DNA from: a virus
Direction: 5' to 3' (one strand)
DNA: 59,722 nt
IMG/VR virus record: IMGVR_UViG_3300044637_002283
Coordinates: 1-59,722 of that record
Numbering within the stretch: the stretch's first letter is position 1; each line of letters begins with the position of its first letter. The position numbers were made by a program, and so were the translations under genes. Positions 28,329 to 54,897 of this stretch are shown piece by piece. The notes under the pieces are model-generated. The model searched no databases. It had not been told where the DNA came from and saw only the letters and a program-made list of their open reading frames with translations.

Positions 28329-29162
28329 ATGAAACAGTTTGAACTCTCCCCACAATTAGTTTTTGAAGGCGGCAACGTATTCAAAACCTCAGATGGCTAT
28401 CCACGCACCACTCGTATCCCACTGGCTTTGATCAGTCCCACGTTGGATTGGCTGGAAAAAATCACAGGGCTGCCTATGCATGGCATGACCTTGGGCAGTG
28501 TTGGCAAAAAAGCCAGCAGTGGGGATATCGACATTGTAGTCGACAGCAAGAAAATGTCAAAAGCCCAATTTGCCCAAAGTCTCCAAAACTGGGTGTTGAG
28601 CCAAGGTTTGAACCCCAAAGAGTATGTGAAGCCTGCTGGAGAAGTTCATCTGTTGACACCAATTGCAGGTGATCCCAAGAATGGCTTCGTGCAAACTGAC
28701 TTTTTCTTCCATGATGATCCTCAATGGATGAAATTCAGCATGCAGAGTCCAGGAGACGCCAGCAACTACACTGGTGCAGAAAGAAATCAACTCATGAGCA
28801 GTATTGCCAAAGCATTGGGAATGAAATACAGTTGGCAACGTGGACTGTTGAATCGGGAAGATGAATCTGTTATCTCCACTGATCCTGATGTGATTGCACA
28901 AAAGCTATTGGGGCCCAGATTCACTCACGACAGCTTCCAAAGTGTTGAAACTATTCAACGAGCCATCAAAGGCAATAGGGCTATTCATCAAGGGTTGACT
29001 GAGTTGATTCAAACTCTAAGGAGCTTGGATAAATTAGGGCCCACTGGCAAACCCACAATGGATGTGAAAACTGGGAAGTTTAAGCAGAAATCTCCCAGTG
29101 AGCAACGCAAATCAGAAGAAGAAGCTGCAAGGATTGAGCAGTTGACAGGTGTAGCTGTTTAG
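28329..29162 (+). CDS. Pol-beta-type nucleotidyltransferase, 277 aa
   Basis: Residues 55-71, L-G-S-V-G-K-K-A-S-S-G-D-I-D-I-V-V, give the classic G-S...D-x-D (Asp66, Asp68) of the polymerase-beta nucleotidyltransferase fold, and the third carboxylate is likely Asp124 in VQTDFFF. Such enzymes add nucleotides to RNA, proteins or small molecules. It shares interlocked stop codons with the tri-domain enzyme on the opposite strand; the pairing suggests a joint role in nucleic-acid repair or modification, but the substrate cannot be read from sequence. C-terminal 60 residues are charged, helical and possibly binding. Confidence 0.75.
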   Translation: MKQFELSPQLVFEGGNVFKTSDGYPRTTRIPLALISPTLDWLEKITGLPMHGMTLGSVGKKASSGDIDIVVDSKKMSKAQFAQSLQNWVLSQGLNPKEYVKPAGEVHLLTPIAGDPKNGFVQTDFFFHDDPQWMKFSMQSPGDASNYTGAERNQLMSSIAKALGMKYSWQRGLLNREDESVISTDPDVIAQKLLGPRFTHDSFQSVETIQRAIKGNRAIHQGLTELIQTLRSLDKLGPTGKPTMDVKTGKFKQKSPSEQRKSEEEAARIEQLTGVAV

Positions 29163-31378
29163 CTTTTGTTTCCGTATCGGGGATCAATTGGCTTGACATG
29201 AATCTGATCAAACAGCAGAGGAAAGTTGGGCAAAACTTTTGGTAGGTCTGTTCTCTCCAACCAATTGTAATTTACGCTGCTGTGTGGAATGAAGTTGGGG
29301 AAATCGTGAGTTCCGCCCTTGCTCTTCAAATGATGATGAAATTTGTGTGCCAGGTCACAATCTAGGTCTAGGCACAGGGCTTTGTCGCCCATTTTGGTCC
29401 AACCTTTTATTTGTGCTGGCACAACCACAGTGTTACCATGCATGCTCATGAGGTGAGGCACTGGTTTTTGGCTATACAAAACAGTCATGTGAAGATCATC
29501 AGTATTCATACAGGGAACACCTTGACTTTCACACCATTCTTTGAGCTCTCGAGCATTTTTGGGACTCATGCTCAAAACAACTATGGTGCCAGCAGCGTGC
29601 TCATGAGCTTCCATTACTGTGTTCCTAGGGTGCTTGAGATAGCGTCGAACTGATTGGAACAGCCTATTGGAAAGTTCATCATCCAAACCCACAGCTTGGT
29701 GGAAAGCCTTTTTGTCTTTGTTCAAAACAGCCTCACGTGCCTTGGTGCCGCTTATTCCACTAACGCCAATGCCATCTGGATGCCGTTCTCCAGCTGATAC
29801 AATTTCAATCGTCACTGGTTGACGTTGATGTTTTTCACGTATTTCTGGACTGTTCCAAGAGTCAAAAAGGTCTTTCATGCCCTGCACACGATCTTCGCCG
29901 GCAACAAATACAAAATGTCTATAGCCTTTGTTGTAGAGCCATTCTGCGGCTTGCAGCGGAGTTTTGATGCTCTCATCCTGCACCACATGATCTTGGTGTT
30001 GAGACATAATCTCTTGGAAAAACTCCAGCTTTTCCGCCCAAGGCAATGGATTCTTTTTTCCGTCTTGACTGTGACTCAAAAAGATCCAATAGTCACCCTT
30101 GCCAGCGTGTTTGGCCATTGTGTTAACCAAGTGCTGATGACCACGAGTGGGAGGATTCATCCTCCCAAAGGTCCAAACTACCCGGTTGTGTTCTTGTTCC
30201 ATCAATGAATCAGGCTCGCCTTTTCTCATAAATTGGGCACGATTTACAAACTTCACTATTCCAGTGGGAGTTACAGCCACAAATCCCTCATGTCCTGGAT
30301 CTCCACCCAAACTAGCACCCACTGTCCCATCTGTTTGACGGTCCATTTGTTTCTTGAGATCCAGCTTCAAACTTGTTAACAAACTTACTATCCGCCACAC
30401 GCTATTGTAACCATGGATGTGGCTTTGAATCCATTTCAAACACTTGGCCTGCATTGCAGGGCTAGCAGTACTGTTGAGCCCTGTAAGCCACTCCAAAAAC
30501 TCTCTACTCACATGGCTAAATGTGGAACTACCACGTTCTGCCTTTTTGGCCAAAAAGCTTTTCATCAAGCCAGGAAGGCTCAAGATTTCATGACTGGCTA
30601 GTTGTCCTCTGTCCAAAAATGATTTCACACTTACAGCATGCACTCTAAACAAGTGGGATAATTTGTCAACTAAGTTTTTATCCAGGTTCAAACTTTTGAG
30701 CATGGTGGCTTCATGAGGTAGGATAGCCAGTCCTTGATCAGTGCGAAAGCCATATTGACTAATGTTTCGCAAGGCTTCTGGTTCCTGATCTTCAGGGCTT
30801 TGATAAACACTGTGCATGACCACGCCAGCACTGCTGTTGGCAATCATTTCACCATATTGACTGTTGACAGGCACACGATAAGTTATTTTGTTGGGTGTAA
30901 ATTCATATGCCCCATCTACAATGGGAGGTACACCAGTCCACAACAAATCCGCTTGAACGTAACCGATAAATCCTTTTGGGGTAACTTTTTTCAACAATGG
31001 GTAGAGACTGGCTATTTTGTTGGCATATGCCAGTCGAGCACTCTTTGCACTGGGGCTGGTGTCTTTCATTTTCCTGCTCATGAGCATATTGACAATATCC
31101 TCAGGGCTTGTGGTTAAACCATTGTATTTTTTACTGCTGAATCCAGCTTTGTCTGTTAACACAAATTTATAGTCTTTCCATCCAGAAATCAAGGCTGGTG
31201 TTCCATCCATTTTTATACTAACATACTCGGGTTGATGAGCAGTTGTGCTCAGTATATGAAAAGCTCTTTTGGCACCATCTAACCCCTCATCGAAGATCAT
31301 GTCTTCTGGATGCTCGATACGGGCTTTGGCCTCAGTCAAAGAGAGATTTACTACTGGTAATAAGTCAAACAGCTTCAT
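29159..31378 (-). CDS. Tri-domain enzyme: ligase-like, nucleotidylyltransferase, 2H phosphoesterase
   Basis: 739 aa. Domain 1 (about 25-390): covalent nucleotidyltransferase motif I K56-M-D-G-T, with a motif IV-like E364-G-F-V and motif V-like V-K376-F, as in RNA/DNA ligases. Domain 2 (400-560): W-T-F-G-R-M-N-P-P-T-R-G-H414, the HxGH-type nucleotidylyltransferase signature, plus I-S-G-T-K-A-R548. Domain 3 (595-735): H630-M-T632 and H699-S-S701, the two HxT/S motifs of 2H phosphoesterases. Such a set could seal, adenylate and trim RNA ends or rework a nucleotide. All catalytic residues are present. I know no characterised protein with this arrangement. Confidence 0.78.
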   Translation of the reverse strand: MKLFDLLPVVNLSLTEAKARIEHPEDMIFDEGLDGAKRAFHILSTTAHQPEYVSIKMDGTPALISGWKDYKFVLTDKAGFSSKKYNGLTTSPEDIVNMLMSRKMKDTSPSAKSARLAYANKIASLYPLLKKVTPKGFIGYVQADLLWTGVPPIVDGAYEFTPNKITYRVPVNSQYGEMIANSSAGVVMHSVYQSPEDQEPEALRNISQYGFRTDQGLAILPHEATMLKSLNLDKNLVDKLSHLFRVHAVSVKSFLDRGQLASHEILSLPGLMKSFLAKKAERGSSTFSHVSREFLEWLTGLNSTASPAMQAKCLKWIQSHIHGYNSVWRIVSLLTSLKLDLKKQMDRQTDGTVGASLGGDPGHEGFVAVTPTGIVKFVNRAQFMRKGEPDSLMEQEHNRVVWTFGRMNPPTRGHQHLVNTMAKHAGKGDYWIFLSHSQDGKKNPLPWAEKLEFFQEIMSQHQDHVVQDESIKTPLQAAEWLYNKGYRHFVFVAGEDRVQGMKDLFDSWNSPEIREKHQRQPVTIEIVSAGERHPDGIGVSGISGTKAREAVLNKDKKAFHQAVGLDDELSNRLFQSVRRYLKHPRNTVMEAHEHAAGTIVVLSMSPKNARELKEWCESQGVPCMNTDDLHMTVLYSQKPVPHLMSMHGNTVVVPAQIKGWTKMGDKALCLDLDCDLAHKFHHHLKSKGGTHDFPNFIPHSSVNYNWLERTDLPKVLPNFPLLFDQIHVKPIDPRYGNKS

Positions 31379-43391: not shown

Positions 43392-45149
43392 ATGGCTTGG
43401 AAAAAATATTTCACAACAGTACCGAGTCAAGCTAGACTCACTGCAAGACTAGCAGAAATCAACAAAGACAACAGTCAAGGTGCAACCACTACAAAATTCA
43501 GCAGTTATTTGCCTGAAGTCTATGCTGGTGCTCCAAACCGAGTTGAACGCTATGTGGCTTATGAACAAGCTGATTTAGATAGTGAAATCAATCGCAGCTT
43601 GGACACTATTGCTGAGTTCTGCACACAAAACCAAAGTGATGATGAGCCTATTCCTTTCCGATTTATTTGGAAAGGTGATGTTACTGAAACTGAAACAGAA
43701 CTTTTGGCCAGTGCACTTCAACAATGGTGCAGCATCAATAAACTGAATCAACGAATCTTCAAAATATTCCGTAATACTGTCAAATACGGTGATCAATTTT
43801 TCGTCCGAGATCCAGAAACCTATGAGCTGTTGTGGGTAGATTCAGCCAAAGTGGAAAAAATCATTGTCAATGAGGCACAAGGCAAAAAAATTGAACAATA
43901 TGTGATTAGAGATTTGGATTTCAATTTACAAAGTCTAGTGGCAACCAACCCTCTTGTGCATGATCAATACAGTTTCCCAGGAGGTTACCCTCGTAGTGCG
44001 AACCCAGCAGCTGGTGCAGGCAACATCAACTATGGACAGCCCACAACACCTGGCGGCCGTACCAGCAGATTTTACAATCCAGCCAACAGCATGGCAATTG
44101 ATGCCAACCACGTGGTGCATCTCAGTTTAAGTGAAGGCTTGGATCAATATTGGCCTTTTGGCACCAGCATCATTGAAGCAGTTTACAAAACTTACAAACA
44201 AAAAGACCTTTTGGAAGACTGCATTCTCATTTACCGTATTGTGCGTGCACCTGAGCGCAGAGTGTTTAAGATTGACGTGGGTCAGCTGCAAGGTCAACGT
44301 GCCATGCAGTATGTTGAAAGAGTCAAAAACGAAATTTACCAAAGGCGACTCCCAAACCGCACAGGTGGTGGCTCAAGTATTATTGACAGCGCCTATAATC
44401 CCATAAGCATTACAGAAGATTTCTTCCTTGCAACCAACAGTGAACAACGCGGCACAACTATTGACACTTTGAACGCTGGCGAAAACTTGGGCACTATTGA
44501 CGACTTGAAATACTTCAACAACAAGTTGATGCGCGGGCTGGGTATTCCCAGCAGCTATTTGCCCACTGGACCAGATGATGGCACAGCAGTTTACAACGAT
44601 GGCAAAGTGGGAACAGCATTTATCCAAGAGTATAGATTCAACAAATATTGCCAAAGATTGCAGAACAGTCTTGCGCCAACATTGGATATGGAATTTAAAT
44701 TGTTTTTGAAGTTCCGTGGCATTGAGGTACACAGCAGTTTGTTTGAGTTGGCATTTAACGTTCCACAAAGTTTCAGTCAATATCGCAACATGAGCATTGA
44801 CACTGAGCGTGTTAACCTCTTCAGTTCAGCTATGAACAGTGATGCAAGAGCTTACATGAGCAAGAGATATGCGCTCAAGCGTTATCTAGGATGGACAGAA
44901 GAAGATATTCTGGAAAATGAGCGGATGTGGAAAGAAGAAAACAACGACAAAGTCAAAGGCAAGACTGGCACCAGCCCCATTGAAGACAGGGGTGTGGGAC
45001 TGGGATCAATAGGGATACGCCCTTCACCAGAGCCTGATTTTGGTATGGGTGGACCTGAGATGCCTCCTGAAGCCCCGCTTGAGACACCGGGATTTGAAAC
45101 ACCTGAAGTTGCTCCAGGTGCTGAAACACCTCCAACTGAAACACAGTAA
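43392..45149 (+). CDS. gp20: Portal vertex protein, gp20-like
   Basis: 585 aa (T4: 524). N-terminal YLPEVYAGAPNRVERYVAYE and DSEINRSLDTIAEFCTQN; core with FKIFRNTVKYGDQFFV, EGLDQYWPFGTSIIEAVYKT, YRIVRAPERRVFKIDVG and YFNNKLMRGLGIPSSYLP are gp20 hallmarks. It forms the 12-mer ring through which DNA is packaged. The last 50 residues are a Pro/Glu/Thr-rich tail (PEMPPEAPLETPGFETPEVA), unlike T4. Preceded by a late promoter. Confidence 0.93.
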   Translation: MAWKKYFTTVPSQARLTARLAEINKDNSQGATTTKFSSYLPEVYAGAPNRVERYVAYEQADLDSEINRSLDTIAEFCTQNQSDDEPIPFRFIWKGDVTETETELLASALQQWCSINKLNQRIFKIFRNTVKYGDQFFVRDPETYELLWVDSAKVEKIIVNEAQGKKIEQYVIRDLDFNLQSLVATNPLVHDQYSFPGGYPRSANPAAGAGNINYGQPTTPGGRTSRFYNPANSMAIDANHVVHLSLSEGLDQYWPFGTSIIEAVYKTYKQKDLLEDCILIYRIVRAPERRVFKIDVGQLQGQRAMQYVERVKNEIYQRRLPNRTGGGSSIIDSAYNPISITEDFFLATNSEQRGTTIDTLNAGENLGTIDDLKYFNNKLMRGLGIPSSYLPTGPDDGTAVYNDGKVGTAFIQEYRFNKYCQRLQNSLAPTLDMEFKLFLKFRGIEVHSSLFELAFNVPQSFSQYRNMSIDTERVNLFSSAMNSDARAYMSKRYALKRYLGWTEEDILENERMWKEENNDKVKGKTGTSPIEDRGVGLGSIGIRPSPEPDFGMGGPEMPPEAPLETPGFETPEVAPGAETPPTETQ

Positions 45150-45152
45150 ATA
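45145..45152 (+). promoter_or_regulatory. Possible late promoter
   Basis: AGTAAATA overlapping the portal stop, 6 bp before ATG 45158. Weak. Confidence 0.35.
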
Positions 45153-45157
45153 TCAAG

Positions 45158-47134
45158 ATGAATACAAATATCACAAAGACCAATGGCACTACGCTGGCAA
45201 GTATTCCGCCAGGACAGTATAACAGCACAGTTTCCAGTTTGATCCTATTTGGTAAGAATTTTGCCAATTACGGTACTTATTTGAATGAAAATCTTGTTCA
45301 TCTCATGGAAAATTTTGCCGACCAAAGTCCTCCACAAAGTCCCACACAAGGACAGCTTTGGTACAAAACCACAGACAAACAAATGTATGTTTGGGAAGGC
45401 AGTGTTTGGAAACTGCTAAATGCAGAAAGCCTGCAACAGATTGCTGATGCAATTGTTAAAAATCGCATTTACGTTGCAGAAAGTGGTAATGATACCAACA
45501 GTGGACAAAGTTGGTATAGCGCCAAGCGAACTGTGAAAGCTGCATGTGCTGAAGCAGCTAGACAAATTGCCACAGGTGCATTCCGACCTGATCACACAGC
45601 TATATTAGTAGCAGCTGGTGACTATACTGAAGACTGTCCTATTGAAATTCCGCCAGGTGTCAGCATTATTGGCGATAATCTTAGAGCTGTTTCCATACGA
45701 CCAAGAGTCGCAACTACTGATGTATTTTATTTGAACAGCAAGTGTTATGTGTATGGCATTACTGTAAGAGATCATAGATTGAATCCATCAGCATTGGATA
45801 TAACTCCAGCAGGTTATGCCAACACAAGTGGAGTGAATACATCTGCACTGATCTCTACAACTCGACAAACAGGATTTGCCTTTGGCTTTGCTCCAGGTGC
45901 AGACATCTTGGTCAGTCCCTATGTACAAAACTGTTCCAGCATTAGTGGCGATCCAGACACTGGATCAGGGATTTACCCAGGTGGTGGCGGTGTGTTGATT
46001 GATCCCAGTGTTTTGGGACCCAATAATAGGATTCACAGCATTGTTATTGACGCATTTACTCAAATCAATCTTGGTGGTATCGGCGTCAAAGTCATTGGCA
46101 AAGGCTACATGCAGTTGGTGAGTTTTTTCGTTAACTTCTGCCAGTTTGGCTTGCTGTGCCTTGATGGTGGTCACGTGACTGCATTGAACAGCAATTGCAG
46201 TTTTGGCAATTATGCTCTTTGGAGTCAAGGACACCGGTATCTTGAAACCACTGACAGCCCTGTGGCTGTAAATCAAACTTGGGCCACCAATGGTGTCAGT
46301 TCTGATTTTGTCACAACGGGTGGCACTTATGTTTTGCCAAATCAATTCAGTGACTTGGAAGTGCAATTTTTAGACACTGCAACACCGTTGCTGCCCACTG
46401 TTGACTATACAATATCAAAAGGTGTAACAGCGGGTGGTTTGCCTTGTTCAGTTATTAGCTTGAAGTCTTTGCCCATAGCTGGCCGGCAATTGCGAGCCAG
46501 GATCAAGTTTGGCTCCTTGATTGAAGCCAGCGGCTATACCATGAGCTATGCTGGTGCTGGCTTGGATTATGCCAAACTCAGCCCCAGTCAAGATGGCAGT
46601 GGCTACGCTGATCCCAACAAATATACTATTGCACTAGCTGGTGGACGTGTATTCCATACCACAACTGACGAAAGCGGAGACTTTTATGTGGGGGCTGTGA
46701 CACCCAATCCAGCGTTTCAAGTTGGCGGATTGACTATTGCCAATGGCGGAGGCAGCTATAACGTAGGGGATACATTGAATTTCATTACCCCAGCCAACGT
46801 TAACAGCACCTATGCTGTGCCCACAACACTTAAGGTTTTGAGTGTGTCCAGTGGTGTTATTACAAGTGTTGCGATTCTTATTCCTGGATACTATCTACTT
46901 TCGGCGCCAGGTAGCACAACAATTGGCAGTTTGCCCACAAATCCCATTAGTGCAACGTCAACAAGTGGTGGTGGATCGTCAGCTACTTTTAACTTCGTGT
47001 GGGAGAAACCTCCTGCCAGACCCAGTTTCCGCATAAATCAGAGACGAGGTGCTATTGATGGACGCAGCTTTTATCAAAGCATCTTTGGATTTATGACTCC
47101 CTTTATACTTGCTCTTTCACGCAAAGGATCTTAA
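45158..47134 (+). CDS. Tail fibre/spike-like protein with beta-helix, 658 aa
   Basis: N-terminus (residues 1-85) contains FADQSPPQSPTQGQLWYKTT-D-MYVWEGSVWKLL, a module common at the N-terminus of fibre proteins in aquatic T4-like phages. Then YVAESGNDTNSGQSWYSAK, AAGDYTEDCPIEIPPGVSII, NSKCYVYGITVRDHRLN and further Ile/Asn-rich repeats: a right-handed beta-helix as in pectate-lyase-like receptor-binding spikes. C-terminal 150 residues are Gly/Ser-rich. It probably binds or digests a host surface glycan. No catalytic residues can be assigned. Confidence 0.75.
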   Translation: MNTNITKTNGTTLASIPPGQYNSTVSSLILFGKNFANYGTYLNENLVHLMENFADQSPPQSPTQGQLWYKTTDKQMYVWEGSVWKLLNAESLQQIADAIVKNRIYVAESGNDTNSGQSWYSAKRTVKAACAEAARQIATGAFRPDHTAILVAAGDYTEDCPIEIPPGVSIIGDNLRAVSIRPRVATTDVFYLNSKCYVYGITVRDHRLNPSALDITPAGYANTSGVNTSALISTTRQTGFAFGFAPGADILVSPYVQNCSSISGDPDTGSGIYPGGGGVLIDPSVLGPNNRIHSIVIDAFTQINLGGIGVKVIGKGYMQLVSFFVNFCQFGLLCLDGGHVTALNSNCSFGNYALWSQGHRYLETTDSPVAVNQTWATNGVSSDFVTTGGTYVLPNQFSDLEVQFLDTATPLLPTVDYTISKGVTAGGLPCSVISLKSLPIAGRQLRARIKFGSLIEASGYTMSYAGAGLDYAKLSPSQDGSGYADPNKYTIALAGGRVFHTTTDESGDFYVGAVTPNPAFQVGGLTIANGGGSYNVGDTLNFITPANVNSTYAVPTTLKVLSVSSGVITSVAILIPGYYLLSAPGSTTIGSLPTNPISATSTSGGGSSATFNFVWEKPPARPSFRINQRRGAIDGRSFYQSIFGFMTPFILALSRKGS

Positions 47135-47137
47135 CAT

Positions 47138-47608
47138 ATGCCTGCACCTATTTTTAACTTTCGTAATGTCAAAGTTAGAGTTACAAATGATCAACCCACA
47201 ACCATTTACAAAGTTTCAAGTTACGATCAAACTATTCCCAACACAACATTGCCTCCAGGTGTAGATCCAACTGAAGTCAGTATTGTGTTGTTGACTGTTC
47301 AATGCAGCAACATTACAGGCAGTCCCAGCAGTCCTACTCTACGGAAAACCATCAATCTCAGTGTATGGATTGATAATCCTCCTGATCCAGCCTATCTGCC
47401 CACTGGTAGACGTTACCTTGTTAACAATTACACAATTATTCCCAACAACGCTTTTGACCCCTTGAATGGCAATTTGATCATGAGCAGCGGAGATACCTTG
47501 GTTGTACAAGTAAGTAATCCTCCAGCAGAAACAACCAATACCAGTACTGATAACTGTGTTGATGTTGTTGTAAGCCTATTGGAAATTGCCAATGCGACTG
47601 CCAATTAA
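47138..47608 (+). CDS. Small structural protein of the fibre cluster, 156 aa
   Basis: ATG 3 bp after the fibre gene stop, and 9 bp before the next gene. All-beta composition (Thr, Asn, Pro, Val) with TIYKVSSYDQTIPNTTLPPG, as in virion-attached beta-sandwich proteins. Likely part of the fibre or neck; no family recognised. Confidence 0.62.
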   Translation: MPAPIFNFRNVKVRVTNDQPTTIYKVSSYDQTIPNTTLPPGVDPTEVSIVLLTVQCSNITGSPSSPTLRKTINLSVWIDNPPDPAYLPTGRRYLVNNYTIIPNNAFDPLNGNLIMSSGDTLVVQVSNPPAETTNTSTDNCVDVVVSLLEIANATAN

Positions 47609-47617
47609 GGACTAAGC

Positions 47618-48172
47618 ATGCCAAAGCTACTTGATAACCGCGTTGTTGGATCAGCTGATCTTATTGATGTGCAACTGGAAGGTGTTCCAGCTGGCTTGGT
47701 ATTGAAAGTCTCTGCCAACGGAGAGCAATTCTTTTTTGGGCAACAAATTGGACCACCTGGACCTCCAGGTATTATTGGCACAGCAGGGAGCCCTGGCCCT
47801 CAAGGACCACCAGGAGATGACACATTTGTTGTTGGTCCACCTGGGCCTCCTGGTCCTCCTGGTATGGGAGGGGGAATTCCTGGAAGCCCAGGAGTTCAAG
47901 GACCTCCAGGTCCAAACAAAGGCCCGCCAGGCGATCAAGGACCCAATGGTGATACTGGGCCAACAGGACCACAAATAACTGATCAACAACATTATGCAGC
48001 AGTTTTCAGCACTGCTGGTCCACAAACATGGACAGCGCCACCTGGTGTTAGGCGTGCTAGAATAACACTGATCGGTGGAGGGGCTGGGGGAACGTTGGGC
48101 ATTTATGTGCCTCCAGGTTCAGTTCCACCTACAGAAGGTGGCCCTGGGGCTGGCGGCGGAGGACTATTTTGA
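47618..48172 (+). CDS. Collagen-like fibre protein, N-terminal piece (split)
   Basis: 184 aa. N-terminus [20 protein letters not shown] then a (G-P-P)n collagen-like region ([29 protein letters not shown]) and the first part of a glycine-rich domain ([20 protein letters not shown]) that halts at TGA 48170-48172. The two following paralogues (48679, 49612) run on without a break, so this gene is interrupted. The missing C-terminal part is at 48299-48679 in the same reading phase, after a 126-nt segment with several stops. Confidence 0.78.
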
Positions 48173-48298
48173 TTACCATAAGTAGTAACAGAGTCGTAGC
48201 ATAAGACAGCCATTGTCTATTATAGGGATTTAAGGCTATGCAACGCTGGGACTAAACAGTTGGGGTGTAACAATGGATAGCTATAGAGGATTACTGTT
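48173..48298 (+). other. 126-nt intervening segment splitting a fibre gene
   Basis: Begins right after TGA 48172, with in-frame stops at 48179 and 48197 among others. GATTAC occurs at both ends (48171-48176 and 48289-48294). CCATTGT and ACAATGG inside can pair (7 bp), as can AGACA and TGTCT. It ends with AGAGGA 8 bp before ATG 48299, so the second part can be translated on its own. Confidence 0.6.
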
Positions 48299-48679
48299 AT
48301 GAGTGGAAGCATTGGCGGATGGTTTACTGGCCTGGCTGGAGGCTCTGGAGCAATTTTACGGCTGTGGGTAGATATAATCCCAAATGCCACCTATAATCTT
48401 CAAGTTGGTGCTGGAGGTCAAGGGCAAACATCTGCCACAGTTCCTCCAACAAATGGAGGCAACACTACTATGAGCGGACCAGGTGGAGTATTTTATTCTG
48501 CTGGAGGCGGCGTAGCAGTGAGTGGAGGCAATGCAGGCACGACACCAAACATAATTTGGCCCTTGGTACCTGGATCATATCTCCATGGTTTGGCAGGTGC
48601 AGGAGGCGATCCCACTAAGCCAAATCCTGCAGGGTCAAATGGCTCAGCTGGCCTTATTTTGATTGAATGGATTAACTAA
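48299..48679 (+). CDS. Collagen-like fibre protein, C-terminal glycine-rich piece
   Basis: 126 aa, ATG with AGAGGA upstream. Starts inside the Gly-rich domain ([20 protein letters not shown]), includes the conserved strand [11 protein letters not shown] and ends with GLILIEWIN, the same end as paralogues 49608 (ALIEWI) and 50547 (AVLIEYV). It completes the domain begun at 47618. Overlaps the next ATG by 1 bp (TAATG). Confidence 0.72.
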
Positions 48680-49608
48680 TGCCTCGCTTACTTGATAACC
48701 GTATTGTTGGCCCATCACGAGACGTTTTGACTACAACATTATATGGGGCACCTGCCGGGTATGTGTTACGAGTATCCCCCACAGGAGATACACTTGTGGT
48801 CACAACCCCAGGTGGCCCACTGGGTCCTCCAGGTCCTCCTGGCCCCGCTGGACTAGCAGGGCCTGTTGGGCCACCTGGAGCCAGCAGTGCATTAGTAGGT
48901 GATACAGGTCCCCCAGGTCCTCCTGGTCCTGCAGGAGGACCTCCTGGTCCTGCAGGTTTAACTGGACCAACGGGACCAGGCGGGGGACCAGTGGGTCCTC
49001 CAGGACCGCCTGGAATTACTGGACCTATTGGGCCGCCTAGTGGCAATCAAGATATAAATGCAGCACAACTTGTGTCTCCTGGTGTATGGACAGCACCCCC
49101 AGGTGTGTTTTCTGTTAAGCTGACACTTATTGGAGCAGGGGGAGGCGGTAGTTTGCCCGTGAGTGGGGGTAGTCCAATTGAATTTGACAATAGTGCTCAA
49201 TCTGGTTGGACAATACAAGGTATTCCTGGAAGCAGTGGTGGCGTAAATGAACAATGGGTAACTGTGCAGGGCGGACAAAATTACAATGTCACAATAGGAG
49301 TTGGGGGTAGTGGAGCTATAATATCTGGAGGTGGGGTGTACCCCAATGAAAATAATATTCCAACATATTACCCACAATATATATACGTTCCACCAAGTCC
49401 TGGCACCCCTACAACATGGAGTGGTCCAGGCAGTCCCACAGTCGTAGCAGGCGGCGGCCCATCAGCAGGCACCCCCGCAGGAATTCTGGGTACTCCTGGA
49501 GTGAATTCCCCCTTAAGTGTGGGATTGGGTGTGGCAACAGTCTATGGATTTGGGGCAGGAGCAGAACAACAGGGCGGCCCTGGTGCAGCACTTATAGAAT
49601 GGATTTAA
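48679..49608 (+). CDS. Collagen-like, glycine-rich fibre protein, 309 aa
   Basis: N-terminus [37 protein letters not shown]; residues 45-125 are collagen-like with many G-P-P/G-P-x triplets ([10 protein letters not shown]); then a Gly-rich beta domain ([20 protein letters not shown]) ending ALIEWI. The Gly-rich domain resembles the tip domains of receptor-binding adhesins in T4-like phages. Intact counterpart of the split gene at 47618. Starts within TAATG of the previous gene. Confidence 0.82.
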
Positions 49609-49611
49609 AAG

Positions 49612-50547
49612 ATGCCAAAACTTCTTGATAAGCGTATAATAGGCGGGTCTGCAGACGTCCTGAATACAATACTGATTGGTGTGCCTGCTGGGTTGCCCCT
49701 TATAGTGGCGCCAACAGGCGCCGCTTTGCTGTTGGGTCCAGCCACAAGTTTTCCAGGCGTAAGGGGGCCTACAGGGCCTACAGGATTGGGAGGAGCGCCA
49801 GGATTTGGTGGATTTCCTGCCCCTCCAGGTGTAAAAGGTGCCACTGGGTCTGCTGGGCAGCCTGGCCCATTAGCAGGACCACCAGGCACACTAGGGGCAA
49901 CCGGGCCAGTAGGTGGCGCTGGCCCGACCGGAGACCCAGGGGCAACAGGAACTCTTGGTTTTCCAGGACCCCAAGGGACAGGCCAAAAATTAGCAGTAGC
50001 TGGCTTTTTGTCTCCCAGTACATGGGCTGTGCCTGCTACAACTACTAATGTAAAAATCACAACTGTGGGCGGAGGAGGAGCAGGTGGTTGGGGAGCAATT
50101 TATACAACACAGGATTACACAGGTGCTGACGGCGGCTATGCTGATGGTCCCACTATAAAACTAATTGGAGGCAAGGGTGGACCAGGTGCCGCTATAGAAA
50201 CATGGATACCGGTCACGGCAGGCAGTAATTTGCAAGTAATAGTTGGAGGTGGTGGGGCTGCTAACATTAGTAATTCTGGAAACCCTGGCACGCCCAGCCA
50301 ACTTTTGGATCAAAGTGGAATAGCCCTTGTTACAGCAGGTGGTGGAAGCGGCGGCCTCAATGCCAACATCTTCACACCCGGTGCCAATGGTGCGAGAGGA
50401 ACTGCCACCAGCATAGGCCCGCTGGTTTACTTGAATGCTGACTTAGGCCTTAGGTTTGGTTACGGGGGCGTGGGCCGAGACGATACATCAGCATCAGGTG
50501 GACAACCAGGTGCAGTTCTTATAGAATATGTTGCTGTAGGTCCTTAA
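49612..50547 (+). CDS. Collagen-like, glycine-rich fibre protein, 311 aa
   Basis: Third tandem paralogue. N-terminus [20 protein letters not shown]; collagen-like region residues 45-120 with more degenerate G-x-y triplets ([13 protein letters not shown]); Gly-rich domain ([15 protein letters not shown]) ending [11 protein letters not shown]. Its stop interlocks with that of the hydroxylase gene on the other strand. Probable receptor-binding fibre or whisker. Confidence 0.8.
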
Positions 50548-51152
50548 CGCAGTGCTGGACCAGTTAACCAAGCCACCAAAGTGCGGCGTAACCCACTTGT
50601 AACGGGTGTTACTCTATGCAGAACAAAGCTGGGAAAAACGGCTACAAGGCCTAGATCCTTGCTAATGGTTTGTGGATCAGCGCCTAACTTAACTTGTAGA
50701 TTGCCACCTTCATACTCACAGGGATCGCTCAATTGTAAAACTACACTGAGTTTTCGAGGACCGTGGTTTGTGGAAGTGATGCCACTGTCAATATGCCAGG
50801 TGTAGTGACCCTCATCATCCCCGTAGTATTCAGTGTATTGCAGGTGTTCACCAAATCCCCACAAATCAAAGCGAAAATGCTGGCCATTTAAATTACGAAC
50901 AATATTACCCAAGCGTTGATAAATCCAATCAGTGTCAGGACTGGCTTCAATCCAACTGGTTTTGCTTTTGCGTATTTGTTCATAATTTTGAGCGGGATCA
51001 AATCCACCAATTACCGCTTTTCCTGGCTGTCTAGCCTGCCCTAGTTGAATTATCTTTTTTATATCATCTCCTGAAAATCCATCTTTCCAGGTTGCTACGT
51101 TTGCCTCACCAGCGCCAAAGCTGGGACTTGGTAAAAATTGATAAATTGACAC
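50544..51152 (-). CDS. 2OG-Fe(II) oxygenase, PKHD/prolyl-4-hydroxylase type
   Basis: GTG at 51152 is chosen because GGGAG lies 7 bp upstream; a TTG start at 51203 would add 17 residues but has no ribosome site. Iron-binding triad: H-I-D (YTWHIDSGI) and the distal His in [15 protein letters not shown], followed by the 2OG-binding Arg ([10 protein letters not shown]). The [11 protein letters not shown] segment and [16 protein letters not shown] match PiuC-like PKHD hydroxylases. They hydroxylate protein prolines or small molecules. Its neighbours are rich in G-P-P repeats, the classic substrate of prolyl hydroxylases. Confidence 0.88.
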
Positions 51153-51201
51153 TCTGTTGCTCCCTTTGATTTGAACTATACAAGGGCCTTTGTTTCTCTG
51201 C

Positions 51202-51209
51202 AATAAATA
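51202..51209 (+). promoter_or_regulatory. Late promoter for the prohead-core gene
   Basis: AATAAATA (7/8), 6 bp before ATG 51215. Confidence 0.5.
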
Positions 51210-51214
51210 GATTT

Positions 51215-51442
51215 ATGAGAGCAATGGATTTAGATAGTGCTGGCTATTACAGCCCAGACCAAGATCATTATACTATGCAAAATCAGTATGACCCGCGTCG
51301 ACCCAAGATTACAATCGCACATTTAAATCAAATGAAAAGAATGCGTAGTGCCAAGAAATTGGAAAATCTTGTGCGCAGAGATCTTTTGGGCCTGTTGTAT
51401 GGCGCTCCCTCTGCTGAAGGCGGCGGAATGCCAGGCATGTAG
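51215..51442 (+). CDS. Small prohead core protein candidate (gp67-like position)
   Basis: 75 aa, ATG start. Basic middle (IAHLNQMKRMRSAKKLENLV) and Gly/Pro-rich end (APSAEGGGMPGM). In T4 the order is 20-67-68-21-22-23; this gene precedes the acidic 51539 gene and gp21, and its size matches gp67 (80 aa), but composition is basic while T4 gp67 is acidic, so the assignment rests on position. Confidence 0.5.
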   Translation: MRAMDLDSAGYYSPDQDHYTMQNQYDPRRPKITIAHLNQMKRMRSAKKLENLVRRDLLGLLYGAPSAEGGGMPGM

Positions 51443-52945: not shown

Positions 52946-53001
52946 GTTCTTTGAAAAAACACTGGTTTCTTACTGGAAATCCAGCTGTTTCAGATAGTGT
53001 T

Positions 53002-53691: not shown

Positions 53692-54897
53692 ATGGAAAAA
53701 CAACTACAAGAGCTCCTGGAGAACGAAGTGCTTGGCCCCGAAGCCAAAACTGCCCTTCAGGAAGCATTCACAAACAAGCTCAAAGAAGCTGAGACAAAGC
53801 TCCAAGAAAGTTATGCTCATCGCTTCGAGCACGAGCGCGGATTGCTTGTGGAAGCCATGGACAAGATGTTGAACGATGTTGTGAGAAAAGAACTCAGTGA
53901 GTTCTCTCAAGACAAGCAAGCAGTAGCAGCCAAAAAGGTGCAGCTCACCCAGGCTGTTAGTGAGGCAAAATCCACTTACAACAAAAAGCTGGCCCAACAT
54001 GTGAAAATGATGGAACAGTTTATGCAAGGTGAAATCCGCAAGGAAATTACTGAGTTCAAAGCCGACAGAAAACAGTTGGCCGTTCAACGCAAATCTATGG
54101 CTACCGAACTGCTGGAGAGTAAGAAAAACGCTCAAGCAGCCCTCGAAGCTAAAATTGGCAAACTGGAGAACTTTGTTCTTCAGCAATTGTCAGAAGAAAT
54201 TTCCGAATTTCAATCTGACAAAAAGGCTCTGGTAGAGCAACGAGTCAAACTGGCAAGCGAAGCAAAACGCAAGCTGGATGAAACCCAACGCTCATTTGTC
54301 AACAGAGCAACCACTGTGGTTGATAAAACCTTGAACGAGGTCATCAAGCGCGAGTTGGTGCAATGGAGAGACGATATCAAAATTGCTCGTGAGAACAATT
54401 TTGGTCGTAAAATATTCGAAGCTGTGGCCGCTGAATTTATGACCAGCTACCTTGCAGAAGGTACTCAAGTCAAAAAGCTCAGTGATCAACTCAAGACGCA
54501 ACAAGCAGCACTAGCTGAGGCACAAAAGGCAATTCATGAGAAAGAAAATCTCTTGGAAAGCGTTCGTGCACAAAGCCGTGCAGCACAAGCTCAGCTTCAA
54601 AGAGCCCAAGTGCTCAATGAGCTGTTGAACCCCTTGGCCAGAGACAAGAAAAAGATCATGGAAAGCCTTTTGGAAGATGTGAAAACCACACACCTCAAAG
54701 AAAGCTATCACAGATACTTGCCCGCAGTGTTGAACCAAAATGCACCAGCCGCACCAAAGGCTGTGCAAGCAAAACCCAGCAGAGCTGTGGCACATTCCGG
54801 AGACCGCGTAAGTCTCGTGGAAACACAACAAAACCCAACTGAAGATCGCGATCTTCAAAATATCTTGTATTTGGCCGGTGTCGCCAAAGCACAATAA
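53692..54897 (+). CDS. gp22: Prohead scaffold protein, gp22-like
   Basis: 401 aa, helical nearly throughout, with repeats of E-I-T-E-F-K-A-D-R-K type (YNKKLAQHVKMMEQFM; QQLSEEISEFQSDKKALVEQ) expected from the coiled-coil scaffold that templates the T4 head. T4 gp22 is 269 aa. C-terminal SRAVAHSGDRVSLVETQQ resembles the gp22 tail. ATG with AAGGAG (53676-53681). It lies between gp21 and gp23, as in T4. Confidence 0.85.
   Translation: MEKQLQELLENEVLGPEAKTALQEAFTNKLKEAETKLQESYAHRFEHERGLLVEAMDKMLNDVVRKELSEFSQDKQAVAAKKVQLTQAVSEAKSTYNKKLAQHVKMMEQFMQGEIRKEITEFKADRKQLAVQRKSMATELLESKKNAQAALEAKIGKLENFVLQQLSEEISEFQSDKKALVEQRVKLASEAKRKLDETQRSFVNRATTVVDKTLNEVIKRELVQWRDDIKIARENNFGRKIFEAVAAEFMTSYLAEGTQVKKLSDQLKTQQAALAEAQKAIHEKENLLESVRAQSRAAQAQLQRAQVLNELLNPLARDKKKIMESLLEDVKTTHLKESYHRYLPAVLNQNAPAAPKAVQAKPSRAVAHSGDRVSLVETQQNPTEDRDLQNILYLAGVAKAQ

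Follow-up and report, generated by a model that had tools for sequence, protein, structure and literature searches.

We describe a gene for an Fe(II)- and 2-oxoglutarate (2OG)-dependent oxygenase that stands directly beside collagen-like tail-fibre genes in a 59,722-nt stretch of viral DNA (IMG/VR record IMGVR_UViG_3300044637_002283, positions 1 to 59,722; hereafter the window). It is a 59.7-kb piece of the genome of a T4-like jumbo phage; near-identical contigs (L002, L004) reach 310-329 kb. The genes in question form an insert between gp20 and gp21, made up of a fibre-like protein, a small gene, three collagen-bearing open reading frames (ORFs) and, on the opposite strand, the oxygenase (Table 1). 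Our analysis confirms the observation of such an enzyme beside collagen-like genes and partly supports the original interpretation, in which it hydroxylates prolines of the G-P-P repeats in the fibres. By profile, modelled fold and residues the enzyme looks like a prolyl 4-hydroxylase (P4H), and it is likely to modify fibres; hydroxylation of the prolines in the neighbouring collagen-like repeats is our leading reading, held at about even confidence.

The reading frame of the enzyme runs on the minus strand (50547-51152, with the stop to 50544) from a GTG start that follows AGGGAG; at this position ATG is used in two sister lineages. PF13640 (E=5e-14) is the sole Pfam domain above cut-off, and phrog_61 is matched at E=5e-29. 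The H-x-D...H plus Arg set that had been read from the sequence is indeed complete, with H120-x-D122, H179 and R189 nearly or fully conserved in 37 relatives. In an alignment with the algal P4H, Tyr140-x-x-His143-x-Asp145 falls on Y117-x-x-H120-x-D122, Arg161 on R133 and Trp243 on W195, and E102 is the equivalent of Glu127. In P4H, Tyr140, Arg161, Trp243 and Glu127 are described as contacting or positioning the target proline (PMC5684110, PMC9676403), and Y117, R133 and W195 are invariant or more than 90% conserved across the same 37 relatives. The phage profile made from these relatives matched algal P4H (2jig/3gze, 3e-16), Bacillus anthracis P4H (3itq/5hv0, 4e-16) and P4H 5c5t (2e-15), with the PKHD protein 3dkq (2e-18) only slightly better and a procollagen lysyl hydroxylase/glycosyltransferase (6ax6) at 4e-4. 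An AlphaFold2 (AF2) model with a mean confidence (pLDDT) of 91 has as its nearest Foldseek neighbours PHD2 (TM 0.72), 3dkq and the P. putida P4H (TM 0.70). The prolyl-hydroxylase-like character that had been proposed is thus borne out by a P4H-like fold together with substrate-pocket residues. The accompanying PKHD name, on the other hand, was a label from pairwise similarity: a single-sequence search does place the PKHD protein 3dkq and PiuC nearest among solved proteins, but all four PKHD equivalog models (NF003972-NF003975) fall far under their cut-offs (64.9 vs 143, 46.6 vs 180, 38.2 vs 399 and 35.4 vs 336 bits), and the Tyr shared by the phage family and P4H is replaced by Phe in 3dkq.

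The Gly-X-Y triplets of the fibre ORFs come in short, interrupted runs, which score 19.6 and 21 bits with Pfam Collagen (PF01391; gathering cut-off 27.2); they are visible by eye and kept in sister lineages. Proline takes the Y position in 11 of 22, 9 of 22 and 4 of 18 triplets in collagen genes 1, 2 and 3, an unusually high level for phage collagens, given that a fraction of at least 0.3 is reached in 1% of 103 unselected collagen loci. The count of three collagen-like fibre genes holds insofar as collagen ORFs with G-P-P do lie beside the enzyme, but the first gene is really two ORFs. It is interrupted by stops, and its glycine-rich tip forms an ORF of its own (48299-48679) with a Shine-Dalgarno-like site. 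The same split between shaft and tip (a gap at 48172-48299 in the window) occurs in three other lineages (L008, L011, L012) with differing spacers and frames, and in L012 the shaft stop and tip start overlap as ATGA. An intron or structured RNA was considered for this break, for which Rfam gave no credible match; because spacer and frame vary by lineage and the two ORFs overlap in L012, a split gene is likelier than an intron. When fibre gene 2 served as the query, matches were confined to these phage lineages plus a single weak, unrelated one that lacks the enzyme. The jumbo relatives also carry a second and longer collagen-like run, of GPT type on the minus strand, at a great distance from the enzyme (G002:C1:72414-72994; G001:C1:354 onward).

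Gene order is kept in all close relatives with enough flanking sequence (L002-L006, L008-L013), which span four lineages and carry enzymes 90-100% identical to that of the window, and because it recurs in all of them the arrangement is not due to chance. Sequence comparison also indicates that the enzyme is under strong purifying selection, with nonsynonymous divergence (dN) of 0.053 and 0.063 and synonymous divergence (dS) of about 2 or more, that is, saturated, against two more distant sister lineages. Between lineages the fibres are far more diverged than the enzyme, yet they retain their G-P-P repeats.

The original prediction expected the two kinds of gene to co-occur in other phages, and they do. 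We sampled IMG/VR loci by GPP (120), GPT (120) and any Gly-X-Y pattern (107 new), together with 120 random loci. Homologues of the enzyme turned up in 21 of 347 collagen loci and in 2 of the 120 random ones, the class A/B enzyme profiles having been seeded mostly from collagen-adjacent members; 15 of the 21 are within 1 kb of the collagen gene, at a mean distance percentile of 0.26 where 0.5 would be expected. Viewed from the enzyme side, 17 of 56 loci have a collagen ORF (2 of 120 random loci), or about 6 of 44 once the window lineage is excluded. A tree built from 84 enzymes needs 11 changes of the collagen label, compared with 25.9 when labels are shuffled (0 of 500 shuffles as low), and at least six of these changes are forced by well-supported branches; the collagen fraction on this tree is inflated, as loci were partly picked by collagen patterns. 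The sister of the window enzyme is L344, from a different phage, where the homologue lies 773 bp from a collagen fibre gene, and the supported clade around the two adds L015, with collagen, and L014, a 6-kb contig that has none. The family is repeatedly associated with collagen-like fibre genes, in many unrelated phages and in a manner clustered on the tree. Two further records may be mentioned here: L297 (LR756501), a 735-kb phage record with thousands of Gly-X-Y pattern matches, has a 46%-identical homologue elsewhere in the record, with no collagen within 10 kb, and the 310-kb relative of the window phage has a second PF13640 oxygenase (G002:C1:29530-29790) far from the fibre cassette.

In other phages, lysine-rich collagens adjoin a protein of about 610 residues that combines GT25 (PF01755) and GT_PLOD (PF25342, up to 4e-49) with a 2OG domain at the C terminus whose HxD...H...K is intact, the architecture of the collagen-modifying enzymes LH3 and that of mimivirus. 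GT_PLOD was found in 4 of the 31 collagen loci with at least 15% Lys at Y and in 0 of the 262 below that level (p=1e-4); 59 PLOD-like loci were fetched, and the 30 with a collagen ORF all have at least 18% Lys at Y (mean 0.39). In many of them the collagen fibre gene comes first, followed by the 2OG enzyme and then the PLOD-like protein, the genes touching or close, and the cassette is present in three cultured cyanophages, S-PRM1 (L549), S-8S55 (L550) and S-CAM9 (L551). It supports a chemistry of the window enzyme's relatives that is directed at proteins, and at fibres. The recurrence of such enzymes beside collagen-like fibre genes suggests that some phages probably hydroxylate their fibres. 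GT_PLOD was found neither in the window nor in the 309-329 kb relatives of the window phage; since it is absent and the enzyme is convergent with the fibres, the window locus is not a copy of the PLOD cassette. The GT25-GT_PLOD-2OG proteins (L189, L226, L366, L223, L017, L023, L566-L624 and the three cyanophages) and the lysine-rich collagen-like fibres beside them often have a window-class 2OG enzyme between the two. The family phrog_61, named only '2OG-Fe(II) oxygenase', matches the S-PRM1 protein of this architecture nearly full-length (3.8e-268), and its name consequently conceals glycosyltransferase domains.

The composition of the neighbouring repeats bears on which residue would be the target. 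Of the non-redundant window-class enzymes lying no more than 1.5 kb from a collagen gene, all 22 have a neighbour in which Pro reaches 10% in X or Y, and in the subset not chosen by a Pro-containing pattern this is so for 12 of 12, against a background of 63 of 102 (p=0.008). Proline is in X only at L195, L293 and L189 and in Y only at L344, L036 and L015, and in (PPG)n the B. anthracis P4H hydroxylates proline at X as well as at Y (PMC8968730). Where a PLOD-like gene accompanies the collagen, a window-class enzyme stands beside 13 of 16 proline-rich but 1 of 14 proline-poor repeats, a contrast for which the raw p=6e-5 is an overstatement, as the rows include many near-copies. The correlation with proline is suggestive.

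Several observations weigh against hydroxylation of the neighbouring prolines. The best single match in the PDB is to a PKHD protein whose substrate is unknown. The enzyme gene runs convergently to the fibre genes and lies outside their operon. No residue is commoner in collagens than proline, and related sequences enter the counts, which tempers the correlation above. The specificity for G-P-P that had been claimed did not hold, as Y-position proline does not predict the enzyme (Fisher p=0.72) and many neighbours have Pro in X only (GPT/GPK) or in Y only. Finally, the family occurs in 356 phage records, mostly marine, and is common without collagen: 16 of 20 homologue-bearing records that were checked have no nine-triplet Gly-X-Y run anywhere and no five-triplet run near the enzyme, although the whole-record pattern would miss short interrupted runs such as those of the window. 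Wide occurrence in phages that lack collagen-like repeats had been named at the outset as evidence to the contrary; it is true of the family at large and untrue of the window clade, in which three of four members are beside collagen.

This last distribution would fit an auxiliary metabolic or host-directed oxygenase, acting on a small molecule, a sugar or a host protein, that merely resides in a variable fibre region. Some copies adjoin tRNA, ribonucleotide reductase or sugar genes, and the literature proposes roles in DNA repair (PMC2984593, PMC9146016) or in capsule or secondary metabolites (PMC7824862). We consider such a role unlikely for the window enzyme, though a serious contender, because the collagen association clusters on the tree with the window clade mostly collagen-linked, four lineages keep the same gene order, and the conserved collagen-2OG-PLOD cassette points to fibre modification. 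Several enzymes without collagen are still near annotated fibre genes (for example in Sf-CH1b, S-RSM4 and Bellamy), so fibre modification may be broader than collagen, or the proximity may reflect the variable fibre region. The same cases, along with the wide variation of neighbouring collagens (Y = P, T, K, Q or A), would also suit a fibre-modifying hydroxylase with a target other than proline, be it Thr, Ser, Asn or Lys of the repeats or a site in the glycine-rich tip or N-terminal domain. This we regard as rather improbable, given that Pro alone among 13 residues tested reaches 10% in all 22 neighbours (Thr does so in 19, others in fewer) and that the residues of the substrate pocket correspond to the proline-holding ones of P4H. 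An AlkB-like DNA or RNA repair dioxygenase, as proposed for cyanophage 2OG enzymes near uvsX/uvsY (PMC2984593), is very improbable here, since fold and profile matches are to protein prolyl hydroxylases and not AlkB, and no DNA-repair gene was identified by Pfam and PHROG matches in the cassette (43392-51442).

Prolyl hydroxylation of the fibres would work as follows. A phage P4H-type Fe(II)/2OG dioxygenase would act on prolines in the collagen-like shafts of the adjoining tail fibres before trimer assembly, using iron, 2OG and oxygen of the host, and the hydroxylation would stabilise or decorate the fibre. We infer from the locus and the enzyme that these fibres would be the substrate, proline the residue, X and/or Y its position, and stability the property affected. 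The wider proposal that T4-like phages, marine ones and others, mature the collagen of their tail fibres by a chemistry of their own, in which a P4H-like enzyme, alone as in the window or with an LH3-like lysyl hydroxylase/glycosyltransferase, would hydroxylate and glycosylate the shaft in the manner of animal and mimivirus collagen, is offered tentatively, at somewhat short of even confidence.

Among known systems, the P4Hs of Chlamydomonas (2jig/3gze) and B. anthracis (3itq/5hv0) share with the phage enzyme the double-stranded beta-helix fold, the HxD...H motif and the Tyr140/Arg161/Trp243 equivalents, with profile matches of about 1e-16; the phage enzyme differs in having Arg rather than Lys for 2OG at H+10, in its 202 residues without a peptide-binding domain, and in being phage-encoded. 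Animal collagen P4H (alpha2beta2) likewise differs by its peptide-substrate-binding domain and its PDI partner. The PHD2/EGLN enzymes are the best structural matches and have an Arg-type 2OG site, but identity is about 18% and there is no HIF-like substrate. An EGLN3-like structure was reported with Phold for marine-phage 2OG oxygenases, PHROG 61 being named, with no link drawn to fibres or collagen (PMC12774648). The PKHD proteins YbiX/PiuC resemble the enzyme through the 3dkq match. The likeness to mimivirus L230 and animal PLOD/LH3 lies in the GT25-GT_PLOD-2OG protein found beside window-enzyme homologues and lysine-rich collagen fibres in other phages, whereas the window enzyme has no glycosyltransferase domain; lysine modification of mimivirus collagen is known (Luther 2011, as cited in PMC12220804). 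One cyanophage has nine copies of 2OG-Fe(II) oxygenases (PMC9146016). In the open-access papers searched we found no direct report of prolyl hydroxylation of phage fibres and no paper tying phage 2OG enzymes to collagen fibres.

As for the layout of the locus, interlocked stop codons had been thought to keep the enzyme and the third fibre gene linked. The 4-nt overlap is real (plus-strand TAA at 50545-50547, minus-strand TAA at 50546-50544) but carries no functional weight in convergent genes: because the enzyme is on the opposite strand, the stops mean adjacency only, not co-expression. Promoter and terminator scans of the locus did no better than on shuffled sequence. Elsewhere in the window, 29159-31378 (minus strand) encodes a 739-residue protein with DUF6267, a cytidylyltransferase-like domain and an Acb1 anti-CBASS domain.

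Table 1. Features of the gp20-gp21 region and codons of the oxygenase (window coordinates).
Feature	Position	Strand	Basis or remark
gp20 portal protein, left cassette boundary	43392..45149	+	PF07230 8e-101
Tail-fibre-like protein, upstream	45158..47134	+	phrog_5342 2e-42
Collagen-like fibre gene 1a (shaft), 184 aa	47618..48172	+	22 Gly-X-Y triplets, half with Y=Pro; Pfam Collagen 8e-4, under cut-off
Fibre gene 1b, separate glycine-rich tip, 126 aa	48299..48679	+	split in four lineages; phrog_863 0.009
Collagen-like fibre gene 2, 309 aa	48679..49608	+	22 Gly-X-Y triplets; phrog tail families
Collagen-like fibre gene 3, 311 aa, convergent with enzyme	49612..50547	+	18 Gly-X-Y triplets; Gly_rich_2 2e-4, under cut-off
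TTAA common to both convergent stop codons	50544..50547	both	
P4H-like 2OG-Fe(II) dioxygenase, 202 aa, GTG start	50544..51152	-	PF13640, P4H profile matches, AF2 model, dN/dS
W195 codon, equivalent of algal P4H Trp243	50568..50570	-	alignment; role from PMC5684110
R189 codon, predicted 2OG carboxylate contact	50586..50588	-	+10 from H179; algal P4H has Lys there
H179 codon, third iron ligand	50616..50618	-	conservation in relatives
R133 codon, equivalent of algal P4H Arg161	50754..50756	-	alignment; role from PMC5684110
H120-x-D122 codons, iron ligands	50787..50795	-	conservation in relatives
Y117 codon, equivalent of algal P4H Tyr140	50802..50804	-	alignment; role from PMC9676403
Small phrog_13986 gene, right cassette boundary	51215..51442	+	gp67-like by position
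gp21 protease	at 52951		
gp23 capsid protein	at 54878		follows gp21

Few unexplained genes are as common in marine T4-like phages as those for 2OG-Fe(II) oxygenases, which have hitherto been guessed to be DNA-repair or metabolite enzymes. The link to collagen fibres gives one subgroup of them a concrete candidate substrate, testable by mass spectrometry on cultured phages (S-PRM1, S-CAM9, S-8S55). If prolyl hydroxylation of these fibres is true, the making of the phage's host-recognition organ would include a protein hydroxylation that depends on oxygen and iron, and collagen-modifying enzymes would be available from phages.

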